From Acidobacteriota bacterium (GTDB lineage: Bacteria; Acidobacteriota; Holophagae; Thermotomaculales; Thermotomaculaceae): a DNA stretch of 64,000 nt. Location of the stretch: assembly GCA_013152385.1 (NCBI GenBank), contig JAADGL010000053.1, positions 1-64,000 of the forward strand, read 5' to 3'. The position numbers and the translations under genes were made by a program. The notes below the pieces were generated by a model. That model had not been told where the DNA came from and made no database searches. It worked only from the letters and a program-made list of their open reading frames with translations. Positions 1,688 through 61,971 of the stretch are shown here, piece after piece (the first letter of the stretch is position 1; each line of letters begins with the position of its first letter).

Positions 1688-1815
1688 GAACCCGCATTTC
1701 ATAAAACGCAGTTTTATGAAATCGGAACTTTCTTGAAGCAGGTCATTGAGTCTGCTCAATATGAGCTGCTTCAAGAAAGTTCCGCACTGCCGGCGAAAGT
1801 CGGCAGTGCGGGTTC
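1688..1815. other. 128-bp element of nested and adjacent hairpins
   Basis: Almost every base can pair. An outer stem GAACCCG (1688-1694) pairs with CGGGTTC (1809-1815). Inside it are hairpin 1 with a 12-bp stem (1696-1707/1711-1722, loop GCA), hairpin 2 with a 19-bp perfect stem (1723-1741/1766-1784) that itself encloses ATTGAG/CTCAAT (1745-1750/1755-1760), and hairpin 3 CACTGCCG/CGGCAGTG (1785-1792/1801-1808). Hairpin 3 could extend to 11 bp at the cost of the outer stem and the base of hairpin 2, giving an alternative fold. It sits 69 bp beyond the stop of the leftward efflux operon. No T-run follows on either strand, so it is not a simple intrinsic terminator. A mobile palindromic element, a structured RNA or an operon-end processing site are all possible. 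Confidence 0.85.
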
Positions 1816-53979: not shown

Positions 53980-54148
53980 ACAAGTGGCCCCGTGAAATCG
54001 TGTGACGGAAAATAATGAACCTGGCCTACCAGGTGGGCACATCAGCCTGCCCTTCGGGTTTCCCGCTCAAGGCGGGCCTGCTCTCCCGGGCAGCGTCACG
54101 TTCCCGCATTATTTCCGTTGGCTCAATATCGCCCCGTCATCACGGGTT
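53980..54148 (-). ncRNA. ssrS: 6S RNA
   Basis: It lies directly after zapA, the classical location. On the minus strand, CCCGTGA and TTTCACGGG form the outer stem; CGGAAATAATG pairs with CATTATTTTCCG beyond it; a short ACCTGG/CCAGGT hairpin sits on the 3' side of the central bubble, and a GC-rich terminal stem holds GCTGCCC/GGGCAGGC. This is the 6S layout, a promoter mimic that sequesters the housekeeping RNA polymerase. Boundaries are approximate to about 10 nt. Confidence 0.82.
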
Positions 54149-54445
54149 TCACAGGACCCGCTTTTCTGTCAGAGAACTCTCAATCATTCCGATTATGCTC
54201 TCAAGCTTGGAAGCAAACTGCGGTTGATCCGCTTTCCGGCATTCCTTCATCAGTTTAAAATAATCATCCACAACCGTCATGGATGCCATGACCAGAAGGC
54301 GGTAAAAATCCACACTCCCGGTTGCTTCCGCCAATTCCTTCATCCTGGATTCGAGAAAATGGGCCATCTCCGTCACGTAACTTTCATCGTAGCGTGAGGA
54401 GATTTTATACTCCTTCCCGTAAATACGAAGGTTATAAATTGCCAT
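54149..54445 (-). CDS. zapA: cell division protein ZapA
   Basis: 98 residues. N-terminal globular domain (AIYNLRIYGKEYKISSRYDESYV) and C-terminal helix for tetramer/coiled-coil formation. ZapA bundles FtsZ filaments. ATG at 54,445 has GAGAGGGAAG upstream and overlaps the ZapB-like gene by 14 bp. The longer frame to 54,502 is shadow. Followed at once by 6S RNA. Confidence 0.9.
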   Translation of the reverse strand: MAIYNLRIYGKEYKISSRYDESYVTEMAHFLESRMKELAEATGSVDFYRLLVMASMTVVDDYFKLMKECRKADQPQFASKLESIIGMIESSLTEKRVL

Positions 54446-61118: not shown

Positions 61119-61971
61119 CAAAAAACCGCATCACCTGCGGGAGAACCGGGGGATAAGAAAGAGAAAACAAAGCCAGAGAGAAAAGACAAGGGAAAATACT
61201 CACCCCCGAGGCTACCGGATACGCTGCAGAAAAAACCCAACACAACCGCCAAAGGCCAGACAATTAAGCAGAATACAGAATACCGGGACCTGCACAGAGC
61301 CCAGAAAGGGAAAAAACATTCTTCATGGACCAGACACGCCGCCCCATCCTGAAACTGAGAAATTGCATACCATTAATTGAGGTCCCCAGTCCCGGCTACT
61401 GCGCAGGCTGAGAAAAAAAGAAAACAACCCCGAAGAGCCGAATTTAAATGTACGAAAACTCCTGGCACTACTCAATTTTCAGTTTCCAACCGTATTCGCT
61501 TCACAAATCCGTTTCACTCCCTCGCTAAAATTTTTCGGAACACCCTCTCCCCTGATCAAGTTTTTTTGTTGACAGAGGCCTTGGGATGGGTGTCCACGGG
61601 TTACCGGTGTCCTTGTTTTTTGCCGCAAACATTCTGCTTGCCGGGATTGATATATTAAAAGTTTTTGTACTTTTCCTGTGGTTTTAAACGATGGGAAATT
61701 TTGATTTCCGAATTTCCGGGGAACTTGAGGGGACAGTGGAATAATGATCCCAAAAACCGCTGCTTTCCAGCCGGAATTAAAGGTGATTTTGTTTTGCACC
61801 GCGGAAATTTTTCGTCCGAAGCACCTGAACCTCCCGGGAGTGGTATACAACGGCTGCCCGGCCGGGGGTCGCGCACCACCGGTAAATCTGATACAATAAG
61901 GCGCATTTTCGGTGCCCCGGAGAAATTCCGGACACTTTAAGCACATGAAAATCAACTGAATTGGAGGATAT
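61119..61971. other. long non-coding region upstream of ahcY
   Basis: About 850 bp without a convincing gene. It includes the 49-bp dispersed repeat copy B and tandem-like words around 61,255-61,310. Short ORFs on both strands lack start sites and family resemblance. I looked for an S-adenosylhomocysteine or SAM riboswitch before ahcY and did not recognise one. A TACAAT at about 61,893-61,898 may be the -10 box of the ahcY promoter, but no clear -35 accompanies it. Confidence 0.5.
61361..61409 (-). repeat. 49-bp dispersed repeat, copy B
   Basis: The reverse complement of 61,361-61,409 aligns gap-free with 1,408-1,456, with 40 of 49 positions identical. The preceding pyrimidine-rich stretch is also similar in character. 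No ORF spans either copy. Confidence 0.75.

Follow-up and report, generated by a model that had tools for sequence, protein, structure and literature searches.

Within the window (the whole stretch of DNA analysed, 64 kb), an RND efflux operon ends in a gene for a PII-like small protein on the − strand (1884-2177; Pfam P-II score 23.9 against a cut-off of 25 bits), and convergent with this operon, about 66 nt past the stop of its last gene, lies a module of 128 bases (1688-1815, + strand) in which an outer stem encloses three hairpins. The outer stem pairs GAACCCGC (1688-1695) with GCGGGTTC (1808-1815) over 8 bp, so that the stem described by the initial annotation is present but is longer than the 7 bp given there. 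Reading along the + strand, hairpin 1 (1696-1722) has 12 bp (arms 1696-1707/1711-1722) around a 3-nt loop, GCA; the middle hairpin (1723-1784) has a perfect 19-bp stem (1723-1741/1766-1784) topped by an apical inner hairpin (1743-1764); and hairpin 3 (1786-1807) has 9 bp (arms 1786-1794/1799-1807) with a longer alternative form (1782-1794/1799-1811) that rivals the outer stem for pairing. These three hairpins, including the competition between the third and the outer stem, agree with the earlier description. The middle hairpin carries an apex (1745-1757, + strand; here TTGAGTCTGCTCA) that is near-invariant in an alignment of 39 copies, with consensus TTGAGCTTGCTCA. Elsewhere in the window, a 6S RNA is found on the − strand (53983-54160, 78.8 bits).

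The minimum free energy of 1670-1830 folded as RNA is −82.5 kcal/mol (z = −12.0 against dinucleotide shuffles, which give −35.6 ± 3.9), none of 200 shuffles was as stable as the module, and the z score for a DNA fold is −16.5. When 128-nt stretches along the 64 kb are compared, the module and a region at about 897-1060 are the two most stable. This latter region, the most stable 128-nt place of all, holds a second closed multi-hairpin element with outer stem CGGCCTGCGGAT/ATCCGCAGGCCG, which has a partial relative in a genome of the same genus (G002:C21:3954-4042). As the initial annotation had stated, the module lacks a U-tract and resembles no RNA class that could be named: of 38 copies, none has four consecutive T after the outer stem on the + strand and three do on the opposite strand, which led us to reject an intrinsic terminator, and an Rfam scan returned nothing over threshold near the site, its only hit there being a sub-threshold match to F6 sRNA (E = 0.13).

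A BLAST search with the module sequence found no second convincing copy in the genome it comes from; the only clear relatives were in the three other genomes of the genus. The apparent single copy would suit an accidental cluster of palindromes. The initial annotation had named a search of this and related genomes with a covariance model as a check, and such a model, built from 15 copies (133.3 bits for the match at 1683-1818), returned dispersed copies in all four genomes of the genus (G000 to G003), with about nine here and about 5, 10 and 25 in the sister genomes. Of the copies here, about eight are diverged ones that BLAST had missed, on contigs C4, C18, C68, C50, C53 (two), C59 and C62; most of them form a GC-rich subfamily with outer stem AAGCCGCG... 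and middle stem AGGCTGCTGCCGCCGAAG..., the outer 5′ arm GAACCCGC being replaced by AAGCCGCG or CGCGGC. These counts are lower bounds, because contig ends, where repeats typically fall, hold many of the copies, several of them at a distance of no more than about 250 nt. Across the rest of the class, 89 genomes, the same model found no copy. Pattern and model matches fall on contigs named as uncultured Acidobacteriota (QMQE01, PFTO01, JAADJC01), and collections of plasmids and phages gave no match to the module; a single match to the apex pattern in IMG/VR, of 26 nt and without the fold, was taken as chance.

The cloverleaf-like fold is conserved among these copies to a greater degree than their sequence. 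In alignment A1, 93.8% of stem cells pair, compared with 36-52% when partners are slid, and the paired substitutions that the initial annotation had proposed to look for are present: 30 cells are changed on both sides (12.3 ± 2.3 in shuffles), and such a change is seen in 12 pairs. As these shuffles leave the relatedness of the copies in place, the strongest evidence for the fold comes from direct comparison of the middle stem, which occurs in at least seven variants (GGAACTTTCCCCGAAGCG, GGAAGCTAAAACGAAAG, GGAGGCGAAAACGGAAG, GGAAGCAAAAATGAAAG, GGGCTATTCCCCCGGC, GGGGAATTGCGCCGCC and AGGCTGCTGCCGCCGAAG), every one matched by its own complement on the opposite arm; the apex TTGAGCTTGCTCA hardly varies. 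The initial annotation would have regarded a single copy lacking both conservation and paired changes as an accident; what we find is the reverse on each count. With homologues bearing paired changes in four genomes and no U-tract in 38 copies, an accidental palindrome cluster or intrinsic terminator is scarcely credible, and accidental palindromes were discarded as a candidate on the copies and the covariation. The module is one copy of a real family of structured repeats, confined to a single genus of uncultured Acidobacteriota, that is apparently undescribed, our literature search having found no described element with its architecture.

The module is also the last (3′) part of a compound repeat, in which a module A is followed by a companion module and then by the three hairpins. 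The companion (1392-1657, + strand, about 270 bp), whose structure was derived from folding and an alignment of 15 full copies, has an outer stem (1392-1403/1646-1657) around three domains (approximately 1405-1426, 1466-1518 and 1521-1641); it lies upstream of many copies of the three-hairpin module. The four genus genomes together contain about 65 matches to it, and a search of 17 other genomes gave none. Module A (1053-1365), the upstream part of the longest form, occurs at six places in three genomes, and at three loci (L070, L081 and L099) homology to it runs on into the companion and the hairpin module; a promoter scan places a leftward promoter-like site inside it (1303-1275). The companion also precedes other tails, among them a solo hairpin 3 (L128, L129) and a different multi-hairpin module (CAGTTCCTGTTCCC...GGGGACAGGAACTGA), which takes the place of the three hairpins at L125, L124, L119, L114, L116 and L117. 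We additionally observed a fragment of the companion (the GGCCTGCG...GTATACAATT part, about 76-79% identity) at 61351-61423 (− strand) of the window. The three-hairpin module itself is bracketed by degenerate direct repeats of the general form AACYGTCAATTTGCC: on the + strand, AACTGCCAATTTACCA upstream (1670-1685; family consensus AACTGTCAATTTGCCA) and AGACATCTAATTTCCGAA downstream (1816-1833; family consensus about AACCGTCAATttgCC). Being degenerate and common to different loci, these repeats look like part of the element. Many copies in G003 (e.g. L089, L087, L094) have periodic CTTTGTGTCCTTTGTGCCCTTGTGCC repeats immediately downstream.

With neighbouring genes called by codon score, copies of the module are intergenic and near gene 3′ ends, and in 23 of 33 cases the gene downstream is in convergent orientation, its stop often being 5-66 nt away. 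Several sites are orthologous: the place beyond the efflux/PII-like operon is occupied in G000, G002 and G003, and further sites lie at what we take, from flanking DNA, to be the ends of hemB (G001/G002) and of a butyrate-kinase-like gene (G001/G003). At one orthologous site a full element in G002 corresponds to a solo hairpin 3 in G000 and G003, which shows that hairpins are gained or lost as modules. Identity is only 53-54% for two orthologous pairs, whereas the best pairs within genomes reach 0.97 (G003) and 0.955-0.991 (GC-rich copies here). Judged from sequence, these subfamilies of 97-99% identity indicate recent copying or conversion, and the combination of diverged orthologues with similar paralogues can be read as concerted evolution or as insertion more than once at preferred sites. 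We found no clean empty site carrying a target duplication.

Mismatches in the stems bear on which molecule carries the fold. In an alignment scored so that both mismatch types count equally, G-T outnumbers A-C by 149 to 46; of the 36 copies that differ, 33 have more G-T, and the G-T share of 76% exceeds the 58% expected from composition; when distinct events only are counted the numbers are 48 and 28, and the excess over composition is not significant (p = 0.36). Domain 3 of the companion has the same wobble bias (64 G-T, 9 A-C). As far as such comparisons can indicate, the bias leans toward strand-specific folding, as RNA or as single-stranded DNA. A DNA cruciform kept by the host and bound, for instance, by a nucleoid protein, by gyrase or by a recombinase, the protein-bound reading offered initially, would account for the intergenic position of the copies and for a fold and apex that persist while stem sequence changes; it predicts no G-T excess, because both strands would be used equally, and apart from the apex the stems are too variable for a sequence-specific duplex site. 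We therefore consider a cruciform quite improbable.

The main rival to a mobile element is a strand-specific RNA role, in which transcription of the + strand would yield a fold that acts in one of two ways: as the 3′ domain of a multi-copy non-coding RNA to which the companion also belongs, or as a 3′-end stabiliser or processing site for the transcripts of neighbouring genes. The wobble bias of both modules speaks for such a role, as do the frequent convergence with a nearby downstream gene and the apex, which we take to be a G(CUUG)C tetraloop. Against it, the wobble excess loses significance when counted by distinct events, and a single-stranded DNA fold, if strand-specific, predicts the same bias; moreover, the promoter scan found no sigma-70-type promoter pointing into the module, there is no U-tract or Rfam family, copy number varies, and subfamilies turn over. 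An RNA function is thus a serious candidate that we nonetheless judge rather unlikely. Of the initial suggestion of a structured RNA at the end of the efflux operon, the wobble bias and the tetraloop apex keep the RNA conceivable; the module is convergent with the operon and off its coding strand.

On balance we favour, as somewhat the more probable account, a non-autonomous structured interspersed repeat of REP/BIME-like character, whose spread by a Y1/HUH transposase acting in trans we infer. The folded single strand would be recognised by an enzyme of the RAYT/TIRYT type, and reading of a single-strand fold by the transposase is our proposed reason for the retention of fold and apex over sequence; inserted elements would be tolerated beyond gene 3′ ends, where their transcripts could also shield mRNA 3′ ends. 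Y1_Tnp proteins are encoded in three of the four genomes of the genus (G000, G002 and G003) and in none of five sister-genus genomes, which also have no element; in the fourth genome (G001, 88% complete) the element is present and a Y1 gene was not detected. The enzymatic step is an inferred one because none of the Y1 transposase genes found in the genus is flanked by the element. Fragments of Y1 genes at contig ends (G000:C28 and G002:C21) have one identical stretch in common. A search of all four genus genomes for RVT_1 revealed no reverse transcriptase, and an origin from a retron or group II intron was rejected on this result. Of the three readings first offered, the non-autonomous mobile element fits best, being multi-copy, dispersed and genus-restricted with recent subfamilies, although no mobilising enzyme is tied to it. 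Its weak points are the presence of copies at orthologous sites and the wobble bias, both of which a host RNA function would explain just as well.

REPs, tagged REPs (GTAG, CGTC) and repeats associated with TIRYT transposases, including an Acidobacteria-specific TIRYT group, have been described (PMC3733652), as have families of stem-loop repeats (PMC2267715). Like REPs and BIMEs, the module is a palindromic repeat dispersed over intergenic sites, frequently those of convergent genes, and it forms mosaic clusters and species-specific subfamilies; as in REP/RAYT systems Y1 transposases occur in its genus. A consensus of about AACCGTCAA beside its 3′ end recalls the CGTC tag, although only 14 of 38 copies have CGTC itself just past that end. 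However, a REP is a single hairpin of 20-40 bp at high copy number, whereas the module is a closed four-stem fold of 128 bp in roughly 5-30 copies, and differs from RAYT-associated REPs in that no Y1 gene flanked by it was found. TIRs of TIRYT transposases are reported to carry the motif GGGGWSAS (PMC3733652), and hairpins GGGGACAGGCACC...TGCCAGTCCCC upstream of the companion at three loci (L133, L126, L128) fit this motif.

In general features the module also resembles ERIC/IRU, bcr1, NEMIS and BOX, which are intergenic, have conserved secondary structure and no coding capacity, and fall into the same size class of about 100-160 bp; to our knowledge, an outer stem closing three hairpins, in mosaic with a second closed three-domain module, has not been described for any of them. 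It is short, non-coding and multi-copy with 8-bp inverted-repeat ends, as MITEs are, but no autonomous partner with matching ends was present in the loci read and no short target-site duplication was found. Integron attC sites are similar in length (about 130 bp) and in being recognised as a folded single strand; the module differs in lacking cassette arrays, its neighbours being ordinary chromosomal genes, and the attC core GTTRRRY was not seen in it by eye. In being multi-copy, intergenic and of common secondary structure, it belongs to the general class of structured intergenic interspersed repeats.

Across 396 Acidobacteriota genomes, the model matched only this genus and one distant genome, G243, where the match is weak and the architecture alike. 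Two copies there (L153 and L159) have the same stem order with letters almost wholly different, a shortened copy lacks the middle hairpin, and no further members appeared in 39 genomes of G243's family. L153 and L159 also have ATCTGTG-type repeats at a place similar to that of the periodic repeats in G003. Common descent of these copies and the genus element is possible. Doubtful, though worth stating, is the broader idea of an ancient class of cloverleaf mobile elements in the Acidobacteriota, with an outer stem closing three hairpins, strand-specific folded mobilisation and nested hairpin modules, whose distant members would share this architecture, a CCCGC/GCGGG outer stem, a CCGGCGAAGCCGG-like hairpin 3 and almost no other sequence.

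The family is a clear example of a bacterial interspersed repeat that inherits its folding plan and not its sequence, subfamilies in sister species having exchanged most stem letters by paired changes with the fold and one apex retained. Such repeats are points at which draft assemblies of uncultured Acidobacteriota break, and repeat numbers are consequently underestimated. Inheritance of fold over sequence also makes the identity of the molecule that reads the element testable, be it a transposase acting on single-stranded DNA or RNA machinery.
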